Positions 7,944 through 40,794 of a stretch of 64,000 bases of DNA are shown in pieces. The translations under genes were made by a program, and so were the position numbers. The notes under the pieces were generated by a model. That model searched no databases. It was not told the DNA's origin and saw nothing but the letters and a program-made list of their open reading frames with translations. The stretch spans positions 1-64,000 of the forward strand of contig NZ_LCWM02000004.1 in NCBI RefSeq assembly GCF_002077075.2. Direction: 5' to 3'. This stretch comes from Thermoproteus sp. CP80. Its GTDB lineage: Archaea > Thermoproteota > Thermoprotei > Thermoproteales > Thermoproteaceae. Position 1 is the stretch's first letter, and the number at the start of each line of letters is the position of its first letter.

Positions 7944-7950
7944 AAAAACT

Positions 7951-7972
7951 GTTAAAAATAACTACTTTAAAA
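7951..7972. promoter_or_regulatory. Interleaved divergent promoters of the island
   Basis: GTTAAAAATAAC (7951-7962) is centred about 25 bases upstream of the helicase ATG at 7982. CTTTTAAAGT on the minus strand (7963-7972) is centred about 25 bases upstream of the dpdA GTG at 7943. Each box lies inside the other operon's promoter region, so the two operons probably compete or are co-regulated. The spacing also fixes both start codons. Confidence 0.6.
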
Positions 7973-7981
7973 GCAACTGAC

Positions 7982-22641: not shown

Positions 22642-22974
22642 GTGTCGAACATCAGGAAAGGGATCCGGATACCGGCCAGCAGAGGGGTAGACGGCCTCGA
22701 CGAGTCCGGCGGACGGGCCGCGCGGTCCCAGGCCGCGCATCAGCCGGCCCTTCAGGCCGCGCTCCAGGCCGCGGACGCGTCCAAATCATCTGCGCCTCAG
22801 CCTCGGCGGGCGGCGCACGATGCGGGGCGGAGGAGGCGCTCTATGCTGCTCTCGGCGACGTCCGACGACGCGGCGCTGAGGCCGGCCTCCTGTATGGACC
22901 GGGTGCTGCTGGAGGCGCTCCGGCGCGTTGGAGGGCCGCGCCTCGAGGCGGCGCCGACCCCATCAAGAATATGA
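22642..22974 (+). CDS. Small basic protein coupled to the ParA-like gene
   Basis: A GTG start about 30 bases after a T-rich promoter-like element gives a 110-residue, Arg/Ala-rich protein (MSNIRKGIRIPASRG at the start). Its stop forms an ATGA overlap with the next gene, the same junction used three more times in this train, which is the main reason to accept it. No motif; composition is low-complexity in the middle. It could bind DNA. Confidence 0.4.
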   Translation: MSNIRKGIRIPASRGVDGLDESGGRAARSQAAHQPALQAALQAADASKSSAPQPRRAAHDAGRRRRSMLLSATSDDAALRPASCMDRVLLEALRRVGGPRLEAAPTPSRI

Positions 22975-23570
22975 TGAGGATAGGGTTCTGCTTCGTCAAG
23001 GGCGGGACCGGCAAGACCACGCTCGCCTCCTCCGCGGTCCTGTACCTAAACGCCGTCGCGGCGACCGCCGGCCTCATCGACGCCTCGCCCGTGCCCATGG
23101 CCTCCCTCCTCCTGGCCGCGGGGGTCCAGCCAGGCGTCCATGCGGGAAGGGAGGACATACCCGTGGCCGTGACGCGCACGCCGGAGGCGCTGGACGCGGC
23201 GTTGAGGGCGCTGGAGAAGATGAAGGTGTCCATAGCCGTGATAGACCTCCCGCCCATGGCCAAGACGCCCCGGCTGGACGTGGCGGTTATCGTCTCAGAC
23301 CCGCCCGGCCTCGAGTTCGTCGGCGACTTCAAGGCCGACGCCGCCCACAGCATCCTCGCCGTGAACATGGCCGAGGGGGTCGACCTGGGCAGATACAAGG
23401 GGCTGGCCAACTCGGCCGCCGTCCTGCCCTACTCGCCGGCGGTGGCCAGGGCCTATCAGAGGCTGACGCCCGCCATACTGCCCCACCATCCCAAGGCGCG
23501 GTCGCTCGGGCGCTGGAAGAAGGCGTTCCTCCGGCTCATGGGCGAGGTGGCGAGGCAAGTCAGGAGATGA
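22971..23570 (+). CDS. ParA/MinD-like ATPase, 199 residues
   Basis: Starts MMRIGFCFVKGGTGKTTLAS; KGGTGKTT is the deviant Walker A of the ParA/MinD/SIMIBI class. A second motif AVIDLPP (about 86-92) corresponds to Walker A' / B. The protein is shorter than plasmid ParA and has no helix-turn-helix domain. ATGA overlaps on both sides place it inside an operon leading to a VirB4-like ATPase. It could position the transfer apparatus or partition an element; no ParB or centromere-like repeats were seen nearby. Confidence 0.8.
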   Translation: MMRIGFCFVKGGTGKTTLASSAVLYLNAVAATAGLIDASPVPMASLLLAAGVQPGVHAGREDIPVAVTRTPEALDAALRALEKMKVSIAVIDLPPMAKTPRLDVAVIVSDPPGLEFVGDFKADAAHSILAVNMAEGVDLGRYKGLANSAAVLPYSPAVARAYQRLTPAILPHHPKARSLGRWKKAFLRLMGEVARQVRR

Positions 23571-23974
23571 GGCTTCTGGAGATCCGCCACAGGATAAGGG
23601 AAGGAGTCGCGGAGGCCCGCCGCAGGTTGAGGGAGCGGCGCAGGGCGAGGGAGGCGGCGCGCAGGTTCCGCGACATAGTCAGGGCCGAAAAGCTGTACGG
23701 GGAGTGGGAGCTCGACTACGTGGAGCTCGGCGTTGAGGATGTGCTCCGGATGTATAAGGTGAGGCCTCTGTTCAAGGACCTCTGGCACATGGCCGAGCAC
23801 TGCACGGACGTCCGCGGCTGCTACCGCATGCTGGCGTACCTAAAGCTTGAGGGCAGGGAGGACGACCTCAAGCTCGTGAGGGAGGCCGTGAGGATTGACG
23901 CCGACGTGGAGATGCTGGTCACGCTGCTGTATCAGGGCAAGAGGGAGGAGGCGGCAAAGCTGATGAGGAGATGA
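23567..23974 (+). CDS. Helical protein between ParA-like and VirB4-like genes, 135 residues
   Basis: Coupled by ATGA to both neighbours. The N-terminal third is an extremely basic helix (residues 5-35, IREGVAEARRRLRERRRAR). The rest is a small helical bundle with two Cys (CTDVRGCYRML). No family recognised. Suggests an adaptor binding DNA or an acidic partner of the ATPases encoded on either side. Confidence 0.65.
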   Translation: MRLLEIRHRIREGVAEARRRLRERRRAREAARRFRDIVRAEKLYGEWELDYVELGVEDVLRMYKVRPLFKDLWHMAEHCTDVRGCYRMLAYLKLEGREDDLKLVREAVRIDADVEMLVTLLYQGKREEAAKLMRR

Positions 23975-25980
23975 GGAGACCCCACGCCTACATCTACATC
24001 GCCCTCGCCGCCTTCGCCGTATCTCTCTACCGGCACCCCGCCACGGCCCTCGTCGCGGTCGCCGCGGCGTACCTCTGGGGCAGGTGGCTTTTGCTCTGGA
24101 TATACGGCCGGAGATGGCCCCTTGAGCCCTACCGCGAGAGGGCCCAGATAGGGCAGTACCCGGCGGCGTACGACCCCCGCCGCAGGCTGTACCACGTCCT
24201 GTGGAAGGCCGAGCCCACTAGAAGCGAGTTCGGCATATCAGCGGCCCAGACGATCCACGAGATGTACGCCTCCCTCGCCCTCCAGAGCCACGAGTTCATC
24301 TCGGTCATCCAGCTCGGCGACGAGAGGTTCATACGCTACTCCACGAGGATCCCGGACGAAAGCCGCATATCGCATGTGGAGTCGGTGCTCCGCACGTATT
24401 TCGTCCTCCACAGGGACCTCTGGCTGTCCGGCAGAATCAGGCCGCGGCGCTGGCTTTACTACGTGGCCGCGGTGCCCCTCGCCCTCGCGCCCCTCGACCC
24501 TGCGTTCATCGCCGTGGCCCTCATACTGCTGTACCACGCCCATTACATACGTAAATGGTACAGAGAGGCGGAGCTGTTCCTGTCGGTCGAGGCCGTGTCC
24601 ACCAAGCGCGACATAGGGACGTCGAGGCAGACCCTGGAGCTCTACGCATCGGCGGAGGCAACCGCCATCGCCAAGATGGAGAAGTGGGCCGTCGTCTTCG
24701 CGCCGAGGCCCGAGAGGAGCGTGGAGAGGGAGTTCGGCAAGGCGTATGAAAGCCCCGTCGAGAAGAGGAGCGTGGTGGTGAGGCTCCACAAGGCCTCCCA
24801 GCTATTGGAGCGCATGCTGAAGTACGACGAGAGGCCCATCTACATGCAGGTCTTCGGCTCGCAGGACTTGGCCACCCAGCTGGAGATCCGCAGAGACCCC
24901 CTGGCGAACGTGTTGTTCTGGACGCCCAACCCGGCCTACATGACCAAGGCCCTAAGCCACGACCTGTCGCGCGTCCCGATCTTCTACGGCGGGAAGCTGA
25001 TGTCGTCGGGGAGGAAGCTCCTGGTGGGCGTCGACAGATTCGGCAGGCCCGTGGAGATCGACATAGACTCCATGCCTGTGGCCCACGCGGTCGTCCTGGG
25101 CCCTTCGGGCATGGGCAAGTCGTGGACGGTCGGCACCCTGGCCGCGCGGCTGGCCAAGCATAAGGACATAAGGCTGGTCGTGATCGACCCCCACGGGGAC
25201 TACGTCGCGCTGGCCAAGCTGATAGGGGCTGAGGTCTTCGAGGTGCCTCGGCTCGTGCCGCCCCTCGGCTCCCTGAGGGACAACAGGTACTTCCGCACGC
25301 TCCTCGTGGAGTTCGGCCTGATGCCTCCCGGCGCGGCCGGATCCGCCTCCGTGGACCCCAGGGCCGCGGCCGAGGCCGTGGCGCAGGCCGCCGGGGTCAA
25401 GGCCGTGAAGGAGGCGGCTCCCCCCGAGAACGTGGTGTGGGACCTGCGCCCGCTGAGGCACGACGCGGCGGCGCAGGCCTTCTTCGTCTCGCTGATACTC
25501 CTCTGGTATCTGGCGCAGCAGGGCGGGAGGCCCTTCGCCGAGAGGGTGGAGACCGTGATCGTCGTGGACGAGGCGGCCCTCCTCATGCACTCGGCCAGGG
25601 TCGCCGAGGGCGGCGTGGTCACCAACGCCGTCCTTTCGCTCATACGGCAGTTCTCCATGGGCGGGAGGAAGTACGGGTTCGCCCTGTGGATCGTCGCCCA
25701 GCTGGCCGACCACATCCCCGACGACATAATCAAGTCCGCCGGCTTCGTCCTCCAGCTGGGAGGGACCCTCCGCGCCCTTGAGCGCAGCGCCAAGGTGCTC
25801 CAGCTGGACAGGGACGACATACAGTATCTGATCAGCGCGACGACGCCCCGCGAGACTGTGGGCGGCGCCGCGGCGGCGGGGAGCAAGCCCTACGCCATGG
25901 GCGTGCTGGAGCTGTCGCCGCGCCAGATAAAGTACCACGTCAAGATACCCCTGGAGCCCGCCCTGAAGGAGGCGGCATGA
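23971..25980 (+). CDS. tedB: VirB4/HerA-type secretion ATPase, TedB/CedB-like
   Basis: 669 residues. Two hydrophobic helices at about 4-40 and another pair near 165-195 anchor it to the membrane. The motor has Walker A GPSGMGKS (377-384) and Walker B VIVVDEA (D533, E534), with IDPHGDY after the first strand and a conserved QLADHIP region in the RecA-like core. This matches the TraC/VirB4/HerA class that powers conjugation; in crenarchaea the homologues are CedB (Sulfolobales) and TedB (Thermoproteales DNA import). Neighbouring pilin-like and channel-like genes support the Ted call. ATGA overlaps link it to the genes before and after. Confidence 0.75.
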   Translation: MRRPHAYIYIALAAFAVSLYRHPATALVAVAAAYLWGRWLLLWIYGRRWPLEPYRERAQIGQYPAAYDPRRRLYHVLWKAEPTRSEFGISAAQTIHEMYASLALQSHEFISVIQLGDERFIRYSTRIPDESRISHVESVLRTYFVLHRDLWLSGRIRPRRWLYYVAAVPLALAPLDPAFIAVALILLYHAHYIRKWYREAELFLSVEAVSTKRDIGTSRQTLELYASAEATAIAKMEKWAVVFAPRPERSVEREFGKAYESPVEKRSVVVRLHKASQLLERMLKYDERPIYMQVFGSQDLATQLEIRRDPLANVLFWTPNPAYMTKALSHDLSRVPIFYGGKLMSSGRKLLVGVDRFGRPVEIDIDSMPVAHAVVLGPSGMGKSWTVGTLAARLAKHKDIRLVVIDPHGDYVALAKLIGAEVFEVPRLVPPLGSLRDNRYFRTLLVEFGLMPPGAAGSASVDPRAAAEAVAQAAGVKAVKEAAPPENVVWDLRPLRHDAAAQAFFVSLILLWYLAQQGGRPFAERVETVIVVDEAALLMHSARVAEGGVVTNAVLSLIRQFSMGGRKYGFALWIVAQLADHIPDDIIKSAGFVLQLGGTLRALERSAKVLQLDRDDIQYLISATTPRETVGGAAAAGSKPYAMGVLELSPRQIKYHVKIPLEPALKEAA

Positions 25981-26966: not shown

Positions 26967-27497
26967 ATGCCGCCCACGAACAAGCCGATGGCTAAGGGCA
27001 AGGGGGGCGGGGAGTCCAAGGCCAAGAAGGCAATCGGGGAGCCTAAGAAGGCCGCCGTCGCGGCGGCCCTCGCGCTGGCCCTGGCCGCGGCGCTCGCGCA
27101 CGCGCAGACCTCCAACGCCACCGGCAACGCCACCGCGGGCAACGCCGCAGCCGTCGTCGGCCAGGTCGAGAGCTGGACCGTGGGCGGGCTGGGGCTTGTG
27201 GTGGACATATTCGGGGCACTGTTCTGGGCCGCCGTGGGGATAGCCATATTCCACATCGCCGTGGCCTACATAGCGCCCACGCGCTTCCAGAGGCTGGGGG
27301 CCATGTGGGACGCGGTGGAGAGGACCAAGGACATAGCGATAGGGCTGGCCGTGCTGTTCTTCATCTTCTACGGCATCATGGCGGCCGCGGCATCCATAAG
27401 CGGGAGCTTCAACGCGGGGACGGCGTGGACCCTCTTCGCGAAGGTGGTGTCGAAGCCCCTCGTGGACATGTTCAACGCCATAATGAAGTCCATCTAG
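26967..27497 (+). CDS. tedC: VirB2-like pilin, TedC-like
   Basis: ATG at 26967 gives 176 residues: a Lys-rich N-terminus, a hydrophobic signal (AAVAAALALALAAALAHAQ) with a likely cleavage after the Gln, and an N-glycosylation-rich segment (SNATGNATAG). Then come two long hydrophobic helices separated by a short charged loop (TRFQRLGAMWDAVERTKD). Signal plus two helices with a charged turn is the VirB2/TraA pilin layout, described for Thermoproteales TedC pili. It lies five bases before the channel-like gene and downstream of the TedB-like ATPase. The identification rests on architecture, not on residue identity. Confidence 0.6.
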   Translation: MPPTNKPMAKGKGGGESKAKKAIGEPKKAAVAAALALALAAALAHAQTSNATGNATAGNAAAVVGQVESWTVGGLGLVVDIFGALFWAAVGIAIFHIAVAYIAPTRFQRLGAMWDAVERTKDIAIGLAVLFFIFYGIMAAAASISGSFNAGTAWTLFAKVVSKPLVDMFNAIMKSI

Positions 27498-27501
27498 CCG
27501 G

Positions 27502-28332
27502 ATGCCCCAGCCCCCCGTTTTTCTAGATCCCCTAACCCTCTCAGGCGTGGCCGTCCTCTCGGCGCAGGCGCTCTACTACGCTGGGCATTGGCTCCTAGGG
27601 GGGCGGGAGGGCAAGGCCAGGGCGGCCGAGGGCTTCGAGAAGGTGGTCATCGCGGGCGTCCTCTTCGGGCTCGCCATGGCGGTCCCCCACCTCCTCCTGC
27701 TGGGCGTGGACGCATATCTGAGCCTGACCGGCATCGGCGGGTCGCAGGCGGGGGCCCTCCTCAGCGCCGTGGGCGACGCCCAGCGGTTCGGAGACGCGAT
27801 GCAGGCGGCCCTCGACAACGCGTCGGCCCTATACGCCAGATATTTCCACGACGCGGAGAGCTCCCTCACGACCTTCTTCTGGGCCGTCTTCGGCACGGGC
27901 CTCACGCCGTGGACGCAGAGCTGGAGCATGGCCATAGCCAACGTCATGTCCGTGGCCGCGACGGTGCTGGGCAACGTACTGGTGACGGCGCCCATCTACG
28001 CCGCAGCCGCCGCCCTGGCCAAGACGTGGACCGCCTTCCTGCCGGTGGGGGCCGTCCTCGTGACGTACGAGAGGACCAGGAACCTCGGCGCGTGGCTCAT
28101 GGCCATAGGCGCCGTCGTGCCGGTGGTCCTGGCGCTGGGGGCCGAGGTCGCCTACAGGACGGCGCCGCCCGTCCAGATGACCTGGCAGAACCTGATCGGC
28201 GACGTGGGGCCCGTCTGGGACGCCGTCAAGGCCATGGTGGTCCTCGGCCTGATAGGCCTGACGGCGGCGGCGCTCGCGTACGCCTTCTCCCGCATATTCG
28301 ACGAGGTGGGGGCGCACTTCGCGGTGGAATGA
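27502..28332 (+). CDS. tedA: Multi-pass membrane protein, TedA/CedA/VirB6-like
   Basis: 276 residues with about six or seven hydrophobic helices, among them VAVLSAQALYYAGHWLLGG, GVLFGLAMAVPHLLLLGVDA, MSVAATVLGNVLVTAPIYAA, LMAIGAVVPVVLALGAEVAY and MVVLGLIGLTAAALAYAFS. It lies between the pilin-like gene and the giant gene, with which it shares an ATGA overlap. In Ced and Ted systems the polytopic channel protein is CedA/TedA, proposed to be VirB6-like; this is the natural candidate. No residue-level confirmation is possible here. Confidence 0.6.
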   Translation: MPQPPVFLDPLTLSGVAVLSAQALYYAGHWLLGGREGKARAAEGFEKVVIAGVLFGLAMAVPHLLLLGVDAYLSLTGIGGSQAGALLSAVGDAQRFGDAMQAALDNASALYARYFHDAESSLTTFFWAVFGTGLTPWTQSWSMAIANVMSVAATVLGNVLVTAPIYAAAAALAKTWTAFLPVGAVLVTYERTRNLGAWLMAIGAVVPVVLALGAEVAYRTAPPVQMTWQNLIGDVGPVWDAVKAMVVLGLIGLTAAALAYAFSRIFDEVGAHFAVE

Positions 28333-31300
28333 TCGAGATAGCGCCGGACCCGGTGGTGCTCGCCTCGGCCGTCCTCGCCGCTGCCCTGATGCTCATCAGG
28401 GGGGACCCCAGGTGGACCCACCCCGTGATGGCGGCCGTCGCGGCCATGATCCTGGTGCCCGCGGCGGTCTCGGCCGTGGCCGCGTGGTTCGGCGCCCCGA
28501 TGCCCGCCGGCGTCTTCGAGCCCAGGCGGGGGGAGTACCTCTGGTACGTCGCCCCCGCCCCCTCCCTTCAGGAGGCCCTCGACAGGAACTACGCGGCGAT
28601 CCACGCCGCCATGACGGCCGTGGAGGCCTTCCAGCGGGCCATGGCCGCCGCGGTGTACGCCGCGGCGTTCAAGGACGTGATCGTGTCCGTGCTCCTGACG
28701 GTCGTCCCCGGCGGCCAGGGGGCGGCGATCGCCGAGTGGGCCGCGGGCCTCTCCAGGTTCGACCCCGTCATGGGCCTCCTCCTCACTATGTACAACGCGG
28801 CCACGTCCATGGGCATGGTGTACCACCTCTTCGACGCGATGGCGGATCTCGCGAGGCGCCTCGCCGTCCCCCTCCTCTCGCTGTCCGCGCTGGCCCTGAC
28901 CACGGGCCGCACCAGGGCGTTGGGAGGCCTCATGGCCGCCTTCGCGCTCCTCGCCGTACTGCTGTCGTATACGGGGTACTACCTGTCGCCCCTAGCCGTG
29001 GACGCGGCGCAGTGGGGCAACGCCACCGCGGCCTGGGGCGAGCGGATCGCCCAGAGCGCGGCGGGCTCCTCCCCTCCGCCCCTGCTGGCTGTGGAGGGTG
29101 CCCCCGACGTCCTCTACCTGGCCAGGTACAACAACACCTTCGTCCAGCCGAGCCCGGCCTATCTGGCCCAGGGGATGCGGTGGGTGGCGAACGCATCGGC
29201 GACGCCGCCGGAGGACGTGGTGGAGGGGATACTGGGTCTGGGCAGGTCGGCGAGGGCCGTCTTCAACGGGTCGGACTGGGTCGCCGCGACGACCGGCTCC
29301 GTCGCGCCCGTGGCGTACGGCAACAAGACGTGGAGGGCCTACGCCGTCCTGGACTGGCTCGACTTCCCGGCGCCGACGCCGCAGAGCGGCTCCTGCGTGG
29401 AGAGGGAGGGCCTTCCCGACATATACCGGCTGGCGGCTGAGGAGGCCTCCAGAGGCGGCAGCCCGCCTCCGCCCGACGTGGGCGAGTGGCTGAACCAGAC
29501 CGCGGAGCGCGCGTGCAGATTCGCGGCGTCCCTGGGCTACAGGAGCTACTTCGTCGACGTGAGGCCGCCCCCCTTCTGGCGCCTCCTAAGCGTCGACATC
29601 AGGTACACGGCCCTGGGCGAGCACGGCCCCGTGGGCGGAGGCGTCGCCAAGGCCTGGGACGGGGTGTGGGGCTGGCTGTCCGGGCCCGACAACGAGACGT
29701 GCATCAACGCCCTGGGGAATAGGTCCGGATGCGCCCTCCTGGACACGACGCTCAAGGCCGGCCTCTACAACTTCTCACTCTGGAACCTCCGCGGCATAGG
29801 GGCCAAGGCCGCCGTGGATCCAGTCGTCGGCGGCGTCGCCGACTACTTCAACTTCTCCCTCCCCAAGGCCTCCCTGTATCTAAACAAAACTATATATCTA
29901 TATACATGGACTGAGGTATGTACATGGACCCAGGGAAACAATACATACACCTCAAGCAGACAGTGGTGGGACGCCTACAGCGTGCAGAGTGTGGACGAGC
30001 AGATCCTATACAACATATCGACGACGATATACGGAAGGCCCTGGGTCGTGAGGGAGCCCGAGAACTACACGGCGCAGATACCCGTCGTGGAGAGGAGCTG
30101 GGTCATCTCGGTGTGGAGCGAGCACGGGCCTTGGGACGGGCCGACGCCGCCGAACAACGCCACGTGCACGATAGAGGATAGGCACGTCTACAAGACCATC
30201 TACGTCTACGACGTAAGGCCGAGGACCCGCATTCTTTATGGGTTCTGGTGGATGCAGGGCGGCGTCGTTGCGGTGAAGCCCAGCGGCGGCGCCCTCCCCG
30301 GCGTCCTCTGGGACAACTCGACGTCGGCGGCCTACGTGGATGGGGCCGAGGGCCAGTTCTACTGCTCCGCGCTAACCGCGCCCGCCTCCACGCCGGACTG
30401 GCGGGCCGTGCCGGCGGCCGAGGGGAACCTCACGGCGCTCCTTAGGGACGACTACTTCAGCCAGGTGGTCCTCAGGAACTTCACCAGGGCCGTCCTCAGG
30501 TGGGCCAACTACAGCGGATTCGCGGCCTTCGCCTCGACGCAGGGGGACCCGGTCCTCAGGGCCGTTGCGGCGAGCGGCCAGGCCCTTCTGGAGTCGCTGG
30601 ACAGGGCCCCGGCCGTGGTGCCCATGTACTACACGGCGCCGGGCTCCTACCGGGCGGAGAACTTCCTCGTCGCATGCGTCGCGTACGACTGGCGCGGCTC
30701 CGCCGCGGTCAACGGCTCCCTTGCCCTCACCCCGGCCGCGGAGTGGTGGGTCGCTAGATACGCCCTGGGGGACTCCAGAGTGGCTGGGCAGTACCGCGGC
30801 CTCGCCGAATACTTCAAGGCCATGTTCAACAGCCCGCCTCCGCCCCCTCCGGCCGCCCTGGCGCCTTATGCGGGCGGCTGGGACGTGCCCTGGGACAACC
30901 GCGCCCTCCCCTACGCGCCCTACTACGGCCCCGGCATGGCCATGCCGCCCGTGGACAGGGCCGTCGGCGTCGCGCTTTGGGACGTCTCCAGAATGCTGTC
31001 CCCCATATCCGCGGCGGCCGGCTTGATAACCCGCGTGTTCCAGACCCTGTTCGTATCGATCTTCGCGGTGGTCGCCGCCTTCGAGCTCCTCGCGTCCCTC
31101 TTCGAGTTCCCTTCGCCGAGCTACTTCCTCTGGCGCTTCGCGACCGGCGCGGTGCAGGAGTGGACCTACTGGCTGCCGGTGAGGCTCACGGTGGGCGTCA
31201 AGGTGCCCGCGGGGGTCTGGAGGGCCGTGAGGAGGCCCTTCATGAGGGCCTCCGTGAGGATCGCCGCAAGGGCGCACGCCCTCGCCGCCTCGAGAATACC

Positions 31301-34300
31301 GGCGCTGAGGCGGATCAGAAGCCCGGACCTGAGGGAGTACTACCGCGAGTACGTGAAGCGCAGGAGGGACATAGCCGTGAAGGACCCGGCGGAGCAGATA
31401 AGGGAGGAGATCGACGTCAAGTGGAGGAGGGAGGCCCTGGAGCGCATAAGGCGGGCCGTGGAGGAGAGGGCGGACGTGGAGTGGATGAGGAACCTTGAGC
31501 GCAGGAGGGAGGAGGAGAGGCGTAGGGCGCTGGAGATGGCTAGACGCGTCAAGGAGGCTCTGAGGGCGGACAACATCGTCCAGGCCGTGAGGGAGCTCTC
31601 GCCGAGGATAGACGCCGAGATACAGGAGAAGGTGGAGATGACGCGCCACTCCCTCTCGTACTACCTCTTCTGGTGGAGGCTGGACAGGCTGCCGTTCGCG
31701 TGGCGGTCCCTCCTGCGCCTGGACCCGCACGTCGTCGCCAGGCTCGAGGCGGAGGGCAGGATCAAGCCGGAGGAGGCCGAGGCTCTGCTCAACCTGAGGG
31801 CGGCGGCGCAGTCCTACGTCCGCGAGTTCAAGAGGCACCTGGCCGAGTACGCTACCTCCCGCTACTACGTAGAGGCCGGAGAGGAGCTCGAAAAGGCGAG
31901 GCAGATAATGCTCGAAGCCGCCGAGAAGGGCCACGAAGACTTCCGCCGGTTTATCGACGAGTTCGGGAGGCGTTACGAGGTCCTTAGGAGGTACTTCTCA
32001 GGCGACCTCCCCGCGGAGGGAAGGGCTGAAATCGCCGAGGAGGCCAAGAAGGCGGTGGAGCGCCTTGAGGAGGCGCTGAGGCACTTCGCCGTGATCGACA
32101 GGTCGCCTAGGGCTAGGCTGGTCGCGGCCCTCAACGAGGCCCTCCGGCACATAGCCGAGGGGAGGGCGCCGCAGATCCCCAGGGACGCCTCCGCCGAGGA
32201 CATAGTCAAGGGCCTGGCGCTTATGGACCTCGGCCTGGCCGTAAGGGCTTTGAGAAGCGCCGAGAGGTACCTGGAGGCGCACTACGCCGTGGCGCCCACG
32301 AGGTACGACACGAGGCAGATAGCGGCGGAGATGGTCAGGTGGCATATCGAGGAGAGGATTCCGACCTTGAGGATAGCCGGCCTCGCCAGAGGCATAGCGC
32401 TGGGGGCCAGGGGCGCCGAGGAGGGCGAGGTGGCGCTGAGGGCGTGGGCCGGGAGGACTGCTGTAAGGCGCGTGGAGGAGGCGCCGTGGGAGGCGGTGGC
32501 GCATAGGGCGTCGCTCCTCAGGGAGCAGAGGGCCAACGCCGCGGAGGCCGTCAAGATTAAGCCGGACGTTGTCCTTCTGTCGGACTACGCCAGATACCTC
32601 GCCGGGTTTAGGGTCGAGGGGGAGGCGCTGGACGCTCTGCGCAAGGCCGTCGAGTACCGCCGCGTCCTGCACGTGCTGGAGAGGGCCGAGGAGCTGAGGC
32701 TGGCGCCTCAAGCCGTCGAGAGGCTCGCGGCGGAGGCCGAGAGGCTGAGGCAAGAGGTCCTACGGGAGACCTCGGCCGTATTCAGAAGGTTCGGGGAGGA
32801 TTTCTTCTTCGTCAGGGACCTCCTGGAGGGCCGCCGCGTCGTCAGGCGGGAGGCGCTTGGGGCGCGCTCGGTTGCTGGGGCCTTCGGGGAGTCTCCTCTA
32901 TATGATGAAGTAAGGCACCTCATCGACGAGGAGAGGGTCAGGGCCCTCGTCAGGGCGCCTCTGTACTCGTACGTCGTGGACCGCCTCGGCCACGACCTGC
33001 TCCGGCCCACGTACGCCAGGTGGTATTCGCTGTTCGTAGAGTACGGCCCGTACATAGCCTCTGCCTTCGAGCACGCCAGGACCAGCCCGGTCAAGGCCGG
33101 CGCCCCCGTCGGCATCGCGGGCGGCTTCAGCTACGCCGGCAAGATGATGAGGTGGCTCGGCGACTTCAGCAAGGAGGCGGTGGTGAGGGGCCTGAGGGCT
33201 TATTACAGGGGGGAGGGGAGGCCCTTCAGAGAGGTCTCTGAGATGACGATAAGGGGCGCCAAGATCCAGCTCTACGAGGGGGCGGCTTCGGCGATCGGCG
33301 CCAAGGCCGCACGCCTGCTCTCAGAGGCCGGGGCGGCCGGGGACGAGAGGGCCGAGAAGCTGAGGGCCGAGGCGGAGGGGCTCAAGCTCCTGGCCTCGGC
33401 GCTGCGCGCGAGGGCGGCGTACGAGGAGATCCGCCTTGTCCAGACGTATCTGAGGGGCGCCGAGAGGAGGGCCGAGGCGCTTATGCGGGAGGCGGAGAGG
33501 GCCGCGGATCCCGGGACGCGGGAGGAACTGTCTAGAAGGGCCAGGGAGGAGCTCGAGGCGGCTAGGGAGAGGGCCGAGCGGCATCTGGCGGACGCGAGGG
33601 CGCGCTATAGGGCGCACGTGGCCGAGATCCGCGACTTCGTTAAGGAGCATGACGTCCGCGAGGTGGCCGCGAGGTACTTCGGCCTGACGGCGAGGGCCTT
33701 TACAGGCGATCCCCAGGAGGTGGCGGAGAGGATGGTCAAGGCAGTGAACGTGAGGCGGGTCGCGAGCTGGATCGACGGGCTCGGCCTCCCGAGGGAGCTG
33801 GGCGGTATGGCGGTGAGGGTCATAGACGCCGAAAGGGTCTACGCGGAGTTCGAGAGGGTCCTAGCCGACCGGGGAAGGCCCATGGAGCCGGGCTATCGCC
33901 TGGAGGGGGCAGGGCAGTTCTTCGAGGGGGCCGTCCCTCAAGCCCCCAAGAGGTCCCGCGTGGAGGAGGCCGTGCCGAGGGCGGTCAGGGACGTCTTCGC
34001 GACCTACTATAGTAGGTTGAGGGATGCCGCCGAGAGGGCGGCCGTCTACCTCGCCCTGGTCAAGAACGACGGTAGGTTCGCCAAGAGGGAGGTGGAGAGG
34101 GCCAGGCAGGCCCTCCTGAAGGCCCTCAGGGCGGGCAGCAGGGAGGAGGCCCTCGCGGCCCTCGAAGAGCTGAAGAAGGCGCTGAAGGCCCTCGGCATAG
34201 ACGTCGAGGGCGATGCTCCCCAAGCCATAGTGAAGGCCGTGGAGGAGAGGGCTAGGCCCGCCTACGAGGAGTACCTCAACGCTAGGAGGGAGTACCTGGC

Positions 34301-37300
34301 GGCGGTGGACGCTATCGCCAAGTTCTCGCCCGAGGCGGCCCTCGCCCTGGGCGATATGGCGAGGGAGGCGGGCTCCGACCCAATATCCAGATGGATGGCC
34401 CTTACGGCGTACGAGGCCAGGGAGAGGGCGCTTAGGGAGTACGCCCGGCATTGGGCCAGGCCGCTTGAGGAGCGCTGGAACTCCCTACCCCAGCCAGTCA
34501 GGGAGATCATCGCCAGGAGGGAGGACGAGGCGGTGGGGGAGGTCCTGCGCAAGGCCCTGAGGAGCGCAGGCATTATCGTGAAGAGGGACGCCGCCGCCGA
34601 CCTGGCGGCCCTTGAGGGAGCTTTGTCCAAGGTCTTCACGGCGAATGGGGAGTGGGGCGACCTCGGGGAGTATGTAAAGCAGGCGGTCGAGGTTGCTAGG
34701 AGGGTTCAGAGGGGGGAGGCGTCTACGGACGAGCTGGGCAGGGCGGTGGACGGCCTTCTGGCGGCCTACGGCGTTAGGGCGGCGGAGCGCTTCGTGGAGA
34801 GCGACAGGCTCGAGGACGCGGTGGGGGAGATGCACGAGGCCATGCGGCGCTACGCCCGCGGCTCCGGCCTTAGGATGGGCAGGGAGGCCGCCGAGAGGGC
34901 CCTCCTGCTGGCCCTCTCCGCCGTGCCTAAGGAGCACGTGGAGGCGTATACACGGGGCGGCTGGAGGGGGCGGATAGAGCCCTACGTGGCCTACTGGACC
35001 GAGGACGCCGAGCTCGCCAGAAGGGCCGGCGAAGCCGGCTGGGAGGTCCGCCAGATAAAGAGGCCCGCCTCCTTCGAGGAGGGGGTGCCCAAGGAGTGGC
35101 GCCCCGCCTACGTCGTCGCCCCCCGCGGCGTAGACCTCTCGGCGGTTGAGAGGGCCGTGACGGAGCTCGTTGACGGCGCGCCCGAGGGCCTCGCCTATAT
35201 AAGGCCCGCCGAGTGGCCAGCGCCGGAGCCGTTCATCTGGTTCGTCCTCAGGGACAGACAGCCGGCCAGAGACGGCGACCAGATAGTCGCCTACTCCATC
35301 GATAGGCTCTCGATCGAGGAGCCCCTGTCTAAATTCGGGGAGGCCCTTAGGGCCAGGGACCGCGACGGCATGAGGAAGATGGTGAGGGAGCTCTACGAGG
35401 CGAGGCTCAACAGAACGGCGTGGCAGATAGTGTATGAGTTCGACCGGCCCAGGGCCAGGGACGCCCTTGAGCATCTGCGCAGGAGGTACGGAGAGCCCTA
35501 CGGGAGGCTCTGGGAGAGGCACGACGAGCTCTACCTCACCTGGCTGGCCTTCAGGCTTGCCGACGAGTTCGAGTCGTATCTTAGGAGCGGGGCGGGCAGG
35601 GAGCTCAGGACCAAGGAGGAGGTGGCGGACGTCATCTCTACGCCGTGGCTCCTCCGCGAGCTTACGCCGGCCTTCATGTACCGGCTGGTGGGGGACGAGG
35701 AGGGGTGGGGCGAGTTCAGGGCCGCGTGGATAACAGCAGTGAACATGTGGTTCGAGGGGATGGCCGAGCCGTACCAGCCCAAGAAGCCGGCCGCGGCGAG
35801 GAGGACGCTGGAGCTCTTCAACGCCTTCATGGGCGCCGGCCTCAAGTACGAGGAGCTGTTCCCGCCTCCCCAGAGGGCCGAGTCGGTCAAGCCCGAGGCG
35901 GCTAGGGCCGAGGCGGCGAAGCCGGCTAAACCCGAGCCGGCCGAGGCGGCTGGGCGCGCGGAACCCGAGGCGGTGAGGCAGTCAGTACAAACCGTAGAGG
36001 AGCGCGGCTTGGGGCGGGCGGAGCCCGGGAGGCCGAGGGCGCCTATAGCCGACGTGATCCCGGATGGGGCGGCCGACGAGGCGTCCTACCTCGTGGGGAG
36101 GTTCGGCGCCGTCCTCGACAGGGAGGCGGCCTTCAGCGCCCACGACTTCGCCGCGGCGAGGGTGAGGGAGAGGCTGGAGAGGGCGGCCGCAAGGGAGCCC
36201 GAATTCGCCCACATACTGGCCGAGGTGGCCGGCGACGTACTCAGCCACTTCGGCCTCCTGATGGCGTCCCCCGACGCCGCGAGGCACGCGCAGGACGCCC
36301 TTCTCTACCTCTTCGAGGGGTACCGGACCAGGGACGGCGAGAGGCTCTACGCGCGCATAGAGCCCGCTATAAGGGAGGCCGTAAGAAAGGCCGAGGAGGC
36401 GGGCATCCCCGACGCCGAGCACCGCGTGAAGCAGTTCGTCCTGGAGATCCTAGACGTCCTTGCGAGGGCCGGCGAGCGCTACAGGAGGGACGCGCTTAAG
36501 GGCGTATCGGCCGTCGAGAGGGCGCTTAGGGCCACCGCCTTAGCCGGTCTCTCCGCGGCGGCCGCCTACTCGGCCTACCAAGGCCTCTACTCGGACGCCG
36601 TGGTCTCCTCCGTAGCTTCCGCGTTCGCGCTGGCGGACGCGGGCCGGTTCAGGGAGGCCGCCGAGTACGTCCGGAGGGCGGCCAAGGCATTATACGAGTC
36701 GGCTAAGGAGCTTTTCGAGAGGGCCAGGGTGGCGGCGGAGAGGCCGGCGGAGCTCTTCGTCGAGGCCGTCGCGAGGGTCCTGGCTTGGGTAGACGAGCAC
36801 AAGGCCTACCTCTTCCTGGCCGCGGCCGTCGCGGCCGGGCTGGTGGCGGCCTCCGCCGCCATGGGCCTCTGGGGCCTCATCGAGCTGGGCAGGCTCGCCT
36901 ACGCGGCGGCCGGCCTGCCGCTCTTCGCCGGGCTCGCCGACGCGGGAGAGAGGGCGGCGGAGAGGTTCAGGGCCCTGGCCGAGAGGTACATAAAGTGGAG
37001 GATCGACGAGGGGGCCGTCGACGGGGTCCTAAAGGCGCCTCTGAGGGGGGAGGGGCCGTATAGGGCGCTTCTGAGGCCGGCCGAATCCAAAAGCCTGCCC
37101 AGGCCCCTCGCGGAGCTGAGGGAGGCGCTGAGATCGGTGGAGGGCGAGGCGGAGAAGGACGCCGCCGTGGTCGCGGCGCTGGCCCTCTACAGGGCGCTTG
37201 TGAGGGGCGCGGAGGCCTATGGGGAGTGGGGCGAGCTGTACCGCTGGGCGAGGGGCCTGGTCAAGAAGCAAGAGTTCACGGTGGCGGCCGGCGAGATCGA

Positions 37301-40300
37301 GAGGCTCCGCGAGGCGCATGGGAGGCTTGAGGAGGCGGCTGAGCTAACGAGGAGGGAGCTGAACGTCGTGCTGGCGCTCTATAAGGAGAAGCCCGACCTC
37401 CACGAGAGGCTCAAGCCCCTCCTGGAGGTGGACCTGAAAATGGCGGAGGGGCTGGCCGAGGCGGGGAGCGGCGAGCTCTCCAAGTTCGGAGGCGCCAGCA
37501 TGGGGACCAAGGCATACGCCGCCCTTCTCTCCATAGCCAGAGGCGGGATATACGGACACGCGGCGATGTTGCTGGCCGGGGAGGGCGCTCTGGCGGATAT
37601 AGTGTTGTCGACGCCCGCGACCGCCTACAAGAAGGCCAGGGAGATCGCCAAGGGGCGCGGCGAGGCAGTCGACCCCTCCCGCTCGCCTAAGGGGGCCGCG
37701 GGCCGCTGGGAGGACAGGGCCACCTCGGCGCTCCTCCGCTACCTCCTAAGCAGAGCCGATGAGGCCGACCTCAAGTTCAGGCGCGTCGGGGAGGGATTCG
37801 AGGTGCTCAGGGCCTACGGCGGCGTCGAGGCGCGTGTAGACGCTCTGGTGGTGGAGGGACAGCCGCGCTCCAAGGCTACCGAGGAGGAGTCGAGGCGCTT
37901 CGTGGAGGAGGCGAAGAGGAAGGCGCCAGACCTCTCGGGGATGGACAAGGCGCCGCAACTCATGGCGTGGCGTGCCACGGACGTGTCGTCCTCCGGAGGG
38001 CGGATAGAGGCCGCCACCGCCCATCCTTGGCAGGCGGCCTGGTACGTCGCCCTCCTCGGCGAGCCGGAGTCGATCAGGGGCGGGGCCAGCATCACGAAGG
38101 AGGGCCATAGGCTCAACGTCATTATGTACTGGCCCCGCGGGAGGGAGGACCGGATTCTGAGGGGGAGCAGATGGCTTGAGTCGGTGCTGGGCCGCCCCGT
38201 CAAGGGCTGGCGCGACCTGGTGGACGTCATAGACTGGAGCCGGATCCTTGAGAGGGTCGGGGAGCTGGCCGACGCGCTGAAGCCCTGGATGGGCCCCAAG
38301 GAGATGGGCGAGGCGGAGAGGGAGGGTCTCGTAGGGAAGATGTTAGGCGAGCTTGCCCTCTTCGCCCACTTCGCCGAGGCGAGGAGGGGGTTAGACGACG
38401 GCGAGTGGCGTAAGGAGAGGGCCGTGAGGCTGTCGAGGGCTGTGGAGGCCCTGAGCGGCGGGAGGATAAGGGGCGAGTACGCCGAGAGACTGGCCAAGCT
38501 GATTATCCGCTACACTGAGGGGAATAAGAAAGATGCAGAGAAGCGCATCGACAAGCTGGCTGGGGAGCTGGCCGGCGTCCTCAAGGAGGATGTGGAAAGG
38601 GTTAGGGGAGAGGTCTGGGGCGTCGTGGACTTCGCCCTAAGCGATATGCGCTGCCTCGCTAGGGACTGCGCGAGGGATGAGGTGGCCAGGAAGTTCGTCG
38701 CCCCCGCCCTTGAGCTCATCATGCTGGACAAGGCGCTTAGGGGCGGGTTCGATAGGGAGGAGGCCCTGCTGCGGTTCGGCGAGATGTACGCCACCGCGAT
38801 TGCGGGGGACGGCTCCGTGGAGCGTGGGCTGGTCGTGCTGGTCGTCGGAGGTGAGCTTGGCGGTGGGGCTACGCTCCTGCGCCTCACCGCGTTGCATCTG
38901 CTCAACGAGCTCCTGCCCGAGGATCTGAGATTCGGCGTGCGGACGTACGCGGGCGAGGGCATATACCGCATAGCCGCAATCGGCGGAGATGCGGCGAGGC
39001 TTAAGCGCCTCCTCGCCGTCTCCGCGCCCTCCGCCGGCGGAGGGTACTTAAGCGACAAGTTCGAGGGGTTCGTGGGGGAGGCCCGGGTGGAGGTGCGGTT
39101 CGGCGGCATGAGGCTGACTCCAAAAGGCCACGTCGCCGCCGATCTGACCATATCGGAGGGCGGCGTCGAGGTGAAGTACAACGTCTATCTGCGCAGAGAC
39201 GCGATCGTGCTTGAATTCATCTCGACGGATCGCAACCGCGTGGAGCTCGCGGCCCGCCTCCTCAGGCATGCGGGCGTTAACGCCGAGGTGAAGAAGGTGG
39301 GCGATAGAGGCGTGTGGCGCGTCGAAGCCACCACCGACATGCTTGCGGCCGGCCGCAAGGAGCTCAGGGACGCCATCGCGGAGGTCGTTAGGAGGGCCGT
39401 CGAGAACGGCGGGGTTGACAGGGAGACGGCCGACCGCTGGCTAGAAAAGCTGGAGAGGGGGCTCACGCTGAGGGAGGACTGGCCGAAGTACGAAGTGGGG
39501 CTGACCGAGGGCGCGCTGGTTGTCAGATATGCTTCCACAAACCCCGGCAACATAGAGCGGGAGGCACGGCGGCTTGAGGCGATGGGCCTCGTGGAGGGCA
39601 GGCACTTCACGGTCAAGATGCCGAAGGGCGGGAAGGCGGGGTATGTAAGGGTCCTCAGGGAGGGCCTTGAGCGCGCCGCGTGGCTTTCAGTCCACGGCGA
39701 AGGCGATCGGCAGAGGCTCGCGGCCAAGTTCGTAAGCTACATACTGAAGAGGGCCGAGGAGAAGGGCGGCGCCGTCTACGAGAAGGCCCTGGAGATCGTG
39801 GATAGGGGTAGGGAGGTGGGCTCCCTAAAGCTTGCGGACGTTAGGGGGGCTGAGGTCTTCGTCGGGGGCAAGAGGTACGTCGTGGACGTCCTCGGCGGAG
39901 GTGCCCAGACCGAGAGGAGCGGGAGCGGCAGGACCCTCCTGAGGATCACGATAGCCGCCGACATAGCTGAAAAAGAAGCGAGAGGCGACGGCGTCAGGGG
40001 CGAGTACACGATTACCTTCGGCAGGTATGGGAAAGACAACGCGGCCGTGGGCTACGCTGTGGCTAGGGCCGACGCCCCCGGCGGCAGGGAGGCCGACGCC
40101 GAGAGGTTCTCAGCCCTCATAAAGGCCCTGACGGGAAAGGAGCCGAGGGTGCGCCGCATGAAGGACGGCACGATAGTGATAAAGTGCACCAGGGAGCACC
40201 TCGACGGCTTCGCCCGCTACGCCGAGCTCGCAGACGCCATAGAGAGGTGGCTGGAGGAGACGAGCCGCCAGCACTGCTGGAAAGGGACCTGTCGAGATTC

Positions 40301-40307
40301 GGCCTAA
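28329..40307 (+). CDS. Giant membrane protein with C-terminal PaREP2b domain, 3992 residues
   Basis: One uninterrupted frame. The ATG at 28329 overlaps the previous stop (ATGA); the frame is open further upstream but that part is antiprotein. Layout: four or more N-terminal membrane helices (about 8-225); a long probably external region rich in Asn-X-Ser/Thr sites and aromatic residues (about 225-880); a further hydrophobic pair (about 898-940, VFQTLFVSIFAVVAAFELL); some 1700 residues of highly charged Arg/Glu/Ala helices, probably coiled coil (about 990-2700); hydrophobic stretches near 2730-2770 and 2825-2855; and from about 3460 a PaREP2b-type domain (AIVLEFISTDRNRVELAARL, RYASTNPGNIEREARRL, GKAGYVRVLREGLERAAWLS). 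PaREP2b is known from Pyrobaculum mostly as broken copies; here it is intact and fused. Co-transcription with Ted-like genes suggests a scaffold or surface component of the apparatus. No intein motifs seen. Confidence 0.8.
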   Translation: MIEIAPDPVVLASAVLAAALMLIRGDPRWTHPVMAAVAAMILVPAAVSAVAAWFGAPMPAGVFEPRRGEYLWYVAPAPSLQEALDRNYAAIHAAMTAVEAFQRAMAAAVYAAAFKDVIVSVLLTVVPGGQGAAIAEWAAGLSRFDPVMGLLLTMYNAATSMGMVYHLFDAMADLARRLAVPLLSLSALALTTGRTRALGGLMAAFALLAVLLSYTGYYLSPLAVDAAQWGNATAAWGERIAQSAAGSSPPPLLAVEGAPDVLYLARYNNTFVQPSPAYLAQGMRWVANASATPPEDVVEGILGLGRSARAVFNGSDWVAATTGSVAPVAYGNKTWRAYAVLDWLDFPAPTPQSGSCVEREGLPDIYRLAAEEASRGGSPPPPDVGEWLNQTAERACRFAASLGYRSYFVDVRPPPFWRLLSVDIRYTALGEHGPVGGGVAKAWDGVWGWLSGPDNETCINALGNRSGCALLDTTLKAGLYNFSLWNLRGIGAKAAVDPVVGGVADYFNFSLPKASLYLNKTIYLYTWTEVCTWTQGNNTYTSSRQWWDAYSVQSVDEQILYNISTTIYGRPWVVREPENYTAQIPVVERSWVISVWSEHGPWDGPTPPNNATCTIEDRHVYKTIYVYDVRPRTRILYGFWWMQGGVVAVKPSGGALPGVLWDNSTSAAYVDGAEGQFYCSALTAPASTPDWRAVPAAEGNLTALLRDDYFSQVVLRNFTRAVLRWANYSGFAAFASTQGDPVLRAVAASGQALLESLDRAPAVVPMYYTAPGSYRAENFLVACVAYDWRGSAAVNGSLALTPAAEWWVARYALGDSRVAGQYRGLAEYFKAMFNSPPPPPPAALAPYAGGWDVPWDNRALPYAPYYGPGMAMPPVDRAVGVALWDVSRMLSPISAAAGLITRVFQTLFVSIFAVVAAFELLASLFEFPSPSYFLWRFATGAVQEWTYWLPVRLTVGVKVPAGVWRAVRRPFMRASVRIAARAHALAASRIPALRRIRSPDLREYYREYVKRRRDIAVKDPAEQIREEIDVKWRREALERIRRAVEERADVEWMRNLERRREEERRRALEMARRVKEALRADNIVQAVRELSPRIDAEIQEKVEMTRHSLSYYLFWWRLDRLPFAWRSLLRLDPHVVARLEAEGRIKPEEAEALLNLRAAAQSYVREFKRHLAEYATSRYYVEAGEELEKARQIMLEAAEKGHEDFRRFIDEFGRRYEVLRRYFSGDLPAEGRAEIAEEAKKAVERLEEALRHFAVIDRSPRARLVAALNEALRHIAEGRAPQIPRDASAEDIVKGLALMDLGLAVRALRSAERYLEAHYAVAPTRYDTRQIAAEMVRWHIEERIPTLRIAGLARGIALGARGAEEGEVALRAWAGRTAVRRVEEAPWEAVAHRASLLREQRANAAEAVKIKPDVVLLSDYARYLAGFRVEGEALDALRKAVEYRRVLHVLERAEELRLAPQAVERLAAEAERLRQEVLRETSAVFRRFGEDFFFVRDLLEGRRVVRREALGARSVAGAFGESPLYDEVRHLIDEERVRALVRAPLYSYVVDRLGHDLLRPTYARWYSLFVEYGPYIASAFEHARTSPVKAGAPVGIAGGFSYAGKMMRWLGDFSKEAVVRGLRAYYRGEGRPFREVSEMTIRGAKIQLYEGAASAIGAKAARLLSEAGAAGDERAEKLRAEAEGLKLLASALRARAAYEEIRLVQTYLRGAERRAEALMREAERAADPGTREELSRRAREELEAARERAERHLADARARYRAHVAEIRDFVKEHDVREVAARYFGLTARAFTGDPQEVAERMVKAVNVRRVASWIDGLGLPRELGGMAVRVIDAERVYAEFERVLADRGRPMEPGYRLEGAGQFFEGAVPQAPKRSRVEEAVPRAVRDVFATYYSRLRDAAERAAVYLALVKNDGRFAKREVERARQALLKALRAGSREEALAALEELKKALKALGIDVEGDAPQAIVKAVEERARPAYEEYLNARREYLAAVDAIAKFSPEAALALGDMAREAGSDPISRWMALTAYEARERALREYARHWARPLEERWNSLPQPVREIIARREDEAVGEVLRKALRSAGIIVKRDAAADLAALEGALSKVFTANGEWGDLGEYVKQAVEVARRVQRGEASTDELGRAVDGLLAAYGVRAAERFVESDRLEDAVGEMHEAMRRYARGSGLRMGREAAERALLLALSAVPKEHVEAYTRGGWRGRIEPYVAYWTEDAELARRAGEAGWEVRQIKRPASFEEGVPKEWRPAYVVAPRGVDLSAVERAVTELVDGAPEGLAYIRPAEWPAPEPFIWFVLRDRQPARDGDQIVAYSIDRLSIEEPLSKFGEALRARDRDGMRKMVRELYEARLNRTAWQIVYEFDRPRARDALEHLRRRYGEPYGRLWERHDELYLTWLAFRLADEFESYLRSGAGRELRTKEEVADVISTPWLLRELTPAFMYRLVGDEEGWGEFRAAWITAVNMWFEGMAEPYQPKKPAAARRTLELFNAFMGAGLKYEELFPPPQRAESVKPEAARAEAAKPAKPEPAEAAGRAEPEAVRQSVQTVEERGLGRAEPGRPRAPIADVIPDGAADEASYLVGRFGAVLDREAAFSAHDFAAARVRERLERAAAREPEFAHILAEVAGDVLSHFGLLMASPDAARHAQDALLYLFEGYRTRDGERLYARIEPAIREAVRKAEEAGIPDAEHRVKQFVLEILDVLARAGERYRRDALKGVSAVERALRATALAGLSAAAAYSAYQGLYSDAVVSSVASAFALADAGRFREAAEYVRRAAKALYESAKELFERARVAAERPAELFVEAVARVLAWVDEHKAYLFLAAAVAAGLVAASAAMGLWGLIELGRLAYAAAGLPLFAGLADAGERAAERFRALAERYIKWRIDEGAVDGVLKAPLRGEGPYRALLRPAESKSLPRPLAELREALRSVEGEAEKDAAVVAALALYRALVRGAEAYGEWGELYRWARGLVKKQEFTVAAGEIERLREAHGRLEEAAELTRRELNVVLALYKEKPDLHERLKPLLEVDLKMAEGLAEAGSGELSKFGGASMGTKAYAALLSIARGGIYGHAAMLLAGEGALADIVLSTPATAYKKAREIAKGRGEAVDPSRSPKGAAGRWEDRATSALLRYLLSRADEADLKFRRVGEGFEVLRAYGGVEARVDALVVEGQPRSKATEEESRRFVEEAKRKAPDLSGMDKAPQLMAWRATDVSSSGGRIEAATAHPWQAAWYVALLGEPESIRGGASITKEGHRLNVIMYWPRGREDRILRGSRWLESVLGRPVKGWRDLVDVIDWSRILERVGELADALKPWMGPKEMGEAEREGLVGKMLGELALFAHFAEARRGLDDGEWRKERAVRLSRAVEALSGGRIRGEYAERLAKLIIRYTEGNKKDAEKRIDKLAGELAGVLKEDVERVRGEVWGVVDFALSDMRCLARDCARDEVARKFVAPALELIMLDKALRGGFDREEALLRFGEMYATAIAGDGSVERGLVVLVVGGELGGGATLLRLTALHLLNELLPEDLRFGVRTYAGEGIYRIAAIGGDAARLKRLLAVSAPSAGGGYLSDKFEGFVGEARVEVRFGGMRLTPKGHVAADLTISEGGVEVKYNVYLRRDAIVLEFISTDRNRVELAARLLRHAGVNAEVKKVGDRGVWRVEATTDMLAAGRKELRDAIAEVVRRAVENGGVDRETADRWLEKLERGLTLREDWPKYEVGLTEGALVVRYASTNPGNIEREARRLEAMGLVEGRHFTVKMPKGGKAGYVRVLREGLERAAWLSVHGEGDRQRLAAKFVSYILKRAEEKGGAVYEKALEIVDRGREVGSLKLADVRGAEVFVGGKRYVVDVLGGGAQTERSGSGRTLLRITIAADIAEKEARGDGVRGEYTITFGRYGKDNAAVGYAVARADAPGGREADAERFSALIKALTGKEPRVRRMKDGTIVIKCTREHLDGFARYAELADAIERWLEETSRQHCWKGTCRDSA

Positions 40308-40386: not shown

Positions 40387-40794
40387 ATGGGGCGTACAGG
40401 CTGGTTCATCCTCCTGATCGCCTTCTCCGCGGGCGGGCTGGCGGCATCGGCGTTGGTTCTCTACCTATGGTACGTGGTCGGCAGGCTGCCGCCCGGCTGC
40501 TACCTCCCCCAGGCAGTGCTCCCCGGCGTCACCGTCGACTGCATGACGGTCCTGTCGAGCCCCTACGCACATATAGGCCCGATCCCTCTGGACGGCTTGG
40601 CCGCTGTGTGGTTCATCTTGAACATGGGATTGGCCGCCGTCTACTTCCGCACGTTTAGGGACGGCTTGCTCACGGCGCTTTTCTACTGGAGGCTTGTGGG
40701 CATCGCGGTGTTGCCCTATCTCCTCTACGTGGAGCTGGCGGTCCTCAAGGCCTTATGTCTATATTGTACTATAATGCACGCATTTATAATATAG
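40387..40794 (+). CDS. VKOR-family disulfide-forming membrane protein
   Basis: 135 residues, four membrane helices. The VKOR signature is present: an early Cys pair region (PPGCYLPQ and TVDCMTVLSSPYAHIGPIP, with the conserved Ser after the Cys) and the active CxxC in the last helix (ALCLYCTIMHAF). VKOR homologues oxidise thioredoxin-like partners, and hyperthermophilic crenarchaea use them for disulfide bonds. GTAAAAACC about 24 bases upstream supports the ATG at 40387. It is separate from the giant gene upstream. Confidence 0.88.
   Translation: MGRTGWFILLIAFSAGGLAASALVLYLWYVVGRLPPGCYLPQAVLPGVTVDCMTVLSSPYAHIGPIPLDGLAAVWFILNMGLAAVYFRTFRDGLLTALFYWRLVGIAVLPYLLYVELAVLKALCLYCTIMHAFII

Follow-up and report, generated by a model that had tools for sequence, protein, structure and literature searches.

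The archaeal Ced and Ted machines of DNA exchange have no recognizable relaxase, and how the exchanged DNA is chosen and prepared is the question addressed here. The Ted (Thermoproteales DNA exchange) system, which resembles type IV secretion systems, comprises TedA, TedB, and TedC, and the part of its description available to us names these three together with HerA-like, ParA-like, and Rad50 proteins, with no mention of a further, giant gene (Beltran et al. 2023, PMC9905601). In Saccharolobus, CedE, a second CedA paralogue with five transmembrane (TM) helices, is needed for both export and import of DNA (PMC11868833). We analyzed a stretch of 64,000 nucleotides (nt) of Thermoproteus sp. CP80 (NZ_LCWM02000004.1, positions 1 to 64,000; hereafter ‘the window’), located on contig C16 of a 1.56 Mb assembly that is 77% complete, in which a set of ted genes is followed by a gene for a giant protein of 3,992 amino acids (aa). 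In our proposal, to which we give a probability of roughly one half, this giant is a fourth conserved Ted component, anchored in the membrane, whose tail, a member of the PaREP2b family, docks DNA at the TedA channel. The genes concerned are as follows:

22971..23570, + strand: ParA/MinD-like ATPase (P-loop read in the sequence; PF01656 E 0.0084, under the cut-off)
23971..25980, + strand: tedB, HerA/VirB4-like ATPase of 669 aa (PF01935 E 7.8e-15; orthologues in ted loci)
26967..27497, + strand: tedC, pilin (matches the solved Pyrobaculum calidifontis pilin 8DFT, E 3.3e-8)
27502..28332, + strand: tedA, polytopic VirB6/CedA-like channel of 276 aa (32% identical to its P. calidifontis orthologue, E 1.4e-15)
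28329..40307, + strand: giant Ted-linked protein of 3,992 aa (open frame; orthologues in closed genomes; conserved overlap with tedA)

An earlier note, made from the letters of this DNA alone, had described an unbroken 12-kb frame that overlaps a channel-like gene, and both statements hold. The frame runs through 3,992 sense codons without a stop, and its ATG overlaps the stop codon of the upstream membrane gene tedA, which itself sits immediately 3' of tedC, by 4 nt (ATGA). Mechanically, the frame opens further upstream, at 27588; position 28329 is the likely start codon because the ATGA overlap recurs in relatives. These relatives were sought in 121 genomes, 19 of which form the family subset (Pyrobaculum/Thermoproteus). 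The N-terminal 1,024 aa of the giant were matched in nine of the 121, and the search for full-length homologues recovered frames of 4,372–5,058 aa in closed genomes, including P. calidifontis (G009) and P. oguniense (G014). An assembly artefact is excluded by these intact relatives together with purifying selection on the body of the protein, where the ratio of nonsynonymous to synonymous substitution (dN/dS) is ~0.1.

The suggestion that the giant is associated with DNA transfer gains support from gene linkage and co-occurrence. Besides the window, the giant begins at the tedA stop codon (ATGA) in P. calidifontis and in the paralogues G003a, G003b, G016b, and G016c, and it abuts tedA in P. 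oguniense. The P. calidifontis giant follows tedC-tedA, the pilin of that locus being the 8DFT sequence itself (E 7.5e-64), and the ParA/MinD-like ATPase is a usual Ted neighbour, found in the same gene order in this species. Across the family, TedB and the giant are both present in 8/19 genomes and both absent from the other 11/19 (P 1.3e-5 if the genomes were independent). A profile search also finds the TM domain of the giant in a sister family, in proteins of 914–1,444 aa encoded in ted loci, one of which (G025) lies directly after a TedC-like gene. With the giants, these orthologues share an alignment that covers the first ~1,000 aa (hhalign 98.6%, E 9.5e-16). Judging from this alignment and from the gene context, both families therefore have the TM–ectodomain–TM module as part of Ted, and the Pyrobaculum/Thermoproteus family has, on the same comparison, elaborated it with a very long cytoplasmic part.

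The giant is built from five regions:

28329..28973, + strand: N-terminal membrane domain, aa 1–215, about five TM helices, distantly TedA-like (hydropathy; profile–profile comparison with TedA)
28974..30998, + strand: sequon-rich ectodomain, aa 216–890 (20 N-glycosylation sequons)
31023..31109, + strand: TM segment after the ectodomain, aa 899–927 (hydropathy; position kept in all giants)
31110..36695, + strand: charged cytoplasmic body, aa 928–2789 (paralogue bodies elsewhere 80–95% identical, dN/dS ~0.1)
36700..40269, + strand: variable tail cassette, aa 2790–3980, shared with dispersed solo PaREP2b genes (blastn against own-genome copies; boundary alignments)

The N-terminal domain is likely akin to TedA/VirB6, as suggested by a profile–profile comparison of aa 1–240 of nine giants with TedA (89.9%, E 1.7e-6, 204 columns), for which reversed TedA gave 0.2%, local shuffling ≤0.2%, and block shuffling 4–13%. 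Sequons are concentrated in aa 216–890 (20, against a single one in the following 3,102 residues), and all giants confine them likewise. Thus, the membrane anchor and the glycosylation-prone ectodomain that had been read from the sequence are upheld by hydrophobic helices in aa 1–215, a further one at ~899–927, and the predicted sequons. The ~3,000 residues after the last TM helix lie on the predicted cytoplasmic side, a topology from which we infer that the tail is in the cytoplasm; hydropathy also marks an isolated hydrophobic stretch near aa 2828. The body is rich in charge (16–17% K+R, 15–16% D+E) and shows no heptad (102.9 degree) periodicity peak, so that the coiled coil claimed for it in the earlier note is not supported. 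No relaxase family was detected by Pfam in the giant or its segments, and a PHROGs search returned no match.

The tail belongs to PaREP2b. It scores 47.1 bits against PF07775 (cut-off 20.4; profile positions 92–257, about aa 3609–3778), although hmmscan of the whole 3,992-aa giant did not detect this family. Profile–profile comparison extends the match over ~570 columns (E 7e-100), and the PaREP2b domain is therefore complete, in agreement with the intact state noticed earlier; similarly, the classic P. aerophilum-type PaREP2b aligns with giant tails over 569 columns (E 3.4e-46). Describing the giant as a fusion with PaREP2b missed the central point, which is that PaREP2b itself is, by profile comparison and structure prediction, a LAGLIDADG-fold domain. 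The repeats of the tail are as follows:

38757..39029, + strand: d1, LAGLIDADG-fold domain with GDG motif, aa 3477–3567 (hhalign 95–96%; AlphaFold2 model; I-DmoI match)
38808..38810, + strand: codon of Asp3494 (invariant in a 12-sequence alignment; structurally aligned on I-DmoI position 21)
39159..39437, + strand: d2, degenerate LAGLIDADG-like second repeat, aa 3611–3703 (hhalign 79%; I-Tsp061I, Z 5.3)
39468..39818, + strand: d3, degenerate LAGLIDADG-like third repeat, aa 3714–3830 (hhalign d2–d3 93%; I-MsoI and second domain of I-DmoI, Z 5.2–5.5)
39876..40295, + strand: possible fourth LAGLIDADG-like repeat, aa 3850–3989 (WhiA Z 5.0, I-TnaI Z 4.1; no support from sequence, hhalign 0.3%)

A profile of the tail matched a profile of genuine LAGLIDADG hits over 78 columns (hhalign 95.2%, E 2.8e-8), compared with 0.8% for the reversed control and ≤0.2% for 12 shuffles, and windows moved along the whole giant confined the signal to aa 3376–3875. 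All giant tails carry a GDG-like motif. Among relatives, PF14528 (LAGLIDADG_3) exceeded its cut-off in one solo PaREP2b (24.1 versus 22.5 bits) and fell below it in giant G016b and three other frames; a direct sequence search of the PDB with the tail found no match. Structure prediction in segments, one of the checks put forward for this protein, gave tail models that match LAGLIDADG proteins. Predictions were made from five-sequence alignments, and the genome-contig profile search gave three loci, all from Pyrobaculum sp. WP30. The AlphaFold2 model of aa 3402–3992 has a predicted local distance difference test score (pLDDT) of 75.4 and a predicted template-modelling score (pTM) of 0.44, with elements in the order alpha-beta-beta-alpha-beta-beta-alpha. 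Its top PDB matches in Foldseek are LAGLIDADG endonucleases (best E 3.9e-4), and VIA-align superposes it on I-DmoI with Z 8.3 over 83 residues at 2.0 Å, placing Asp3494 of the predicted model at the position of the catalytic Asp21. In a second model with d1 left out (pLDDT 82.9), LAGLIDADG proteins again came first; the later repeats are likely LAGLIDADG-like as well, a weaker assignment because their VIA-align matches reach Z 5.5 at most.

Several points count against a Ted component that docks DNA through such a tail. (i) The gene tedA does not adjoin three of the giants (G016a, G016d, and a fragmentary copy in the genome of the window). (ii) Compared directly with TedA, the sister-family orthologues reach only 0.9% in profile–profile alignment. 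(iii) The tails of P. calidifontis and G003 are weakly LAGLIDADG-like (41%, E 2.8e-4, and 56% against alignment A4). (iv) The GDG motif is missing from the sister-family orthologues tested (G021, G025, and G038), which means that not all Ted systems have the tail. (v) The acidic motif is kept in the first repeat only, the later ones being without it in the alignment, and a LAGLIDADG nuclease requires two acids per active unit; putative cutting would therefore need dimerization, since a dimer could supply the second acid. (vi) The fold need not cut at all, as WhiA is a DNA-binding regulator with a LAGLIDADG fold. Some of this fits a different view, in which the giant is an adhesin or surface scaffold of the Ted mating junction, its ectodomain does the work, its cytoplasmic part serves as a structural anchor, and the LAGLIDADG fold has been turned to protein contacts or, as in WhiA, to transcriptional control: what both families conserve is the ectodomain, most of the cytoplasmic part is missing from the sister-family orthologues, and only one repeat has the acidic motif. 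We consider a pure surface role doubtful, as it leaves unexplained both the invariant position of Asp3494 and a tail that evolves fast and is exchangeable.

How fast the tail changes is seen from paralogues. Variation is concentrated in the last ~1,200 residues of the giants, while the body is conserved: within genomes, paralogues mostly share 80–95% identity until near the hydrophobic junction motif, after which it falls, to 58–80% in G016, 20–28% between G007a and G007b, and 20–69% between G003a and G003b; G016b has an additional divergent patch near aa 3000–3200. Among G016 paralogues, dN/dS is 0.08–0.15 in the bodies versus 0.2–0.4 in the tails, with similar dS along the gene. In G007 and G003, dS is saturated in the tails, which implies replacement. 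For the two giants of the window genome, tail dS is ~0.29, below most of the bodies, consistent with gene conversion. In the tail tree, giant tails cluster with solo PaREP2b genes of their own genome, not with each other. At the DNA level, three solo loci share a stretch that opens exactly at 36700 and two share one that opens at 38573; the usual end lies near 40269, twelve codons short of the stop.

PaREP2b copies elsewhere had been proposed to be remains of such giants, an idea that holds in part. Where solos extend as far as the junction, their 5' end holds a piece of the conserved junction zone of the giant (~−110 to +50 aa), a scrap that points from giant to solo; they occur in the window genome, Pyrobaculum sp. 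WP30, P. oguniense, and G012, also where the giant or Ted is absent. In P. oguniense, a solo at 2.43 Mb stands behind an out-of-frame stretch of giant body and a TedB fragment (2433992-2434405), and thus sits in what reads as a decayed ted locus. Two P. oguniense regions labelled paREP2, at 485-530 kb and 2,420-20 kb, are listed among the large ones missing from P. arsenaticum (PMC3558965); if the coordinates are the same, they contain the giant locus (519-532 kb) and the decayed ted locus, both of which would then be accessory. On the other side, most of the solos examined in P. aerophilum and WP30 have open frames, which makes them look like maintained or proliferating genes and not just debris, and many are open in genomes without Ted. 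A general position of PaREP2b behind ted genes is not supported: G012 and G013 are rich in PaREP2b and have neither TedB nor the giant, and 10 of the 12 PaREP2b loci of the window genome are not giants. Upstream of several own-genome solos, and divergent from them, lies a TFIIB-like gene (PF00382; L056:1236-2128, L054:1964-3111) whose copies share 83–92% DNA identity, with one copy in G028, from another family. PaREP2a was considered as the upstream partner of the solos and rejected, the common head of ~1.1 kb encoding this divergent gene instead.

The tail could alternatively be a selfish LAGLIDADG element, related to homing endonucleases, that has settled at the 3' terminus of a structural Ted gene and serves its own spread, the solos being its other copies. 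Such an element would fit the sharp DNA boundaries at 36700 and ~40269, the raised dN/dS of the tails, and the dispersed solos (10 loci here and far more in G012 and G013), and in the paper on the P. oguniense genome PaREP2b is called a putative transposon (PMC3558965). Against it, a tail follows the same junction in all full-length giants of the family, with no empty (tail-less) allele seen there; net purifying selection acts on the tails, which stay in frame; and the junction scraps run in the giant-to-solo direction. We therefore regard self-serving spread as an unlikely account. Conserved bodies with replaced tails, orphan tails across the genome, a nuclease-type fold, and linkage to a machine resembling a type IV secretion system also recall polymorphic contact-dependent effectors, with the tail as a variable nuclease-like toxin and the solos as orphan toxin modules. 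This we find very improbable owing to topology and the absent immunity gene: the sequons indicate that the tail stays in the cytoplasm of the cell that makes it, several helices anchor the giant in the membrane, and no conserved candidate immunity gene lies downstream, core metabolic genes directly following in most loci. In the window, the core genes 3' of the giant encode a putative RNA methyltransferase, SecY, ribosomal protein L15, RNase HII, S5, and L30. Between them and the giant, a 135-aa putative membrane protein (40387-40794) has no relative 3' of other giants.

In the fourth-component model that we favor, the TedA-like membrane domain is probably paired with the co-translated TedA channel, the glycosylated ectodomain would be carried outside the cell, and inside it a long helical arm would end in the LAGLIDADG-like repeats. 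We infer that this tail binds particular DNA sequences beside the channel and so does the docking, perhaps also the nicking, job of the bacterial relaxosome and coupling protein, while TedB would power transport. Fast evolution would have made the tail module diverse, as would its replacement by, or gene conversion with, dispersed PaREP2b copies; different alleles would accordingly recognize different DNA. Variation of the tail from copy to copy suggests a way in which such cells may select DNA for exchange. A bolder version, which we hold only tentatively and think improbable, makes the tail a relaxase substitute: a membrane-tethered LAGLIDADG dimer that would recognize particular chromosomal sites, nick them, and feed the strand to TedA, its sites reprogrammed by exchange of PaREP2b cassettes. 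If so, PaREP2b repeats would be a specificity reservoir for the choice of sites.

Other observations concern copy number, spread, and surroundings. Each of the genomes G016 and G007 has at least four giants alongside three to five copies of TedB, which suggests mobile rather than purely domesticated loci. The second giant of the window genome (L044, G000:C25) is cut by the contig start and has a frame break near its position 1000, which may reflect either sequence error or decay. In a sister-family genome, a broken giant N-terminus with stop codons (L121, G028:C9, 8769-9604) shares its contig with a TFIIB-like gene, an apparent transfer between families followed by decay. A viral or plasmid origin of the giant was rejected, as the tail has no relatives in viral contigs and neither tail nor N-terminus has any among PLSDB plasmids. 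Left of the ted genes, positions 3528-14279 hold a Dpd-like 7-deazaguanine DNA-modification island, with DpdA carrying a fused DpdC/DUF6884-like part, a second TGT-like gene, a BrxD-like ATPase, a DpdJ-like helicase, and a DpdK-like PLD nuclease. A 1,484-aa protein with a weak STAND/AAA ATPase match (15579-20033) lies between this island and the ted genes.

Compared with described proteins, the giant resembles the extended VirB6 proteins, such as F TraG and RvhB6 of Rickettsiales, in joining a probably VirB6-like N-terminus to a long extension; we know of no extended VirB6 protein with a cytoplasmic LAGLIDADG tail. The tail shares the fold of the homing endonuclease I-DmoI and of WhiA, and in its first repeat the position of the acidic motif, but it differs from LAGLIDADG endonucleases and WhiA in being part of a membrane-anchored protein of 4,000 aa, with several degenerate repeats and without an intron or intein. 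By profile–profile comparison the tail is a full-length member of PaREP2b (PF07775); known PaREP2b genes are solo, whereas here the domain ends a conserved giant. The open-access papers searched offer for PaREP2b only the putative-transposon label (PMC3558965), and nothing relevant on LAGLIDADG combined with archaeal conjugation, an absence that is weak evidence in both cases. PaREP2b, an unexplained Pyrobaculum repeat family, thereby gains a known fold and a link to a DNA-transfer machine, and Ted gains, in a conserved, co-translated component with a LAGLIDADG-like tail, a concrete candidate for the choice of DNA. The Ted operon as described (Beltran et al. 2023, PMC9905601) is of the same type as that in the window, whose tedC, tedA, and tedB are orthologous to its genes. 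In P. calidifontis, the source species of the solved pilus, our analysis places the giant behind tedA. Like CedE of the related Saccharolobus machine (PMC11868833), the giant is probably a second VirB6/CedA-like paralogue with about five TM helices; CedE is described as those five helices only, whereas the giant adds an ectodomain, a body of ~1,900 aa, and a LAGLIDADG tail.

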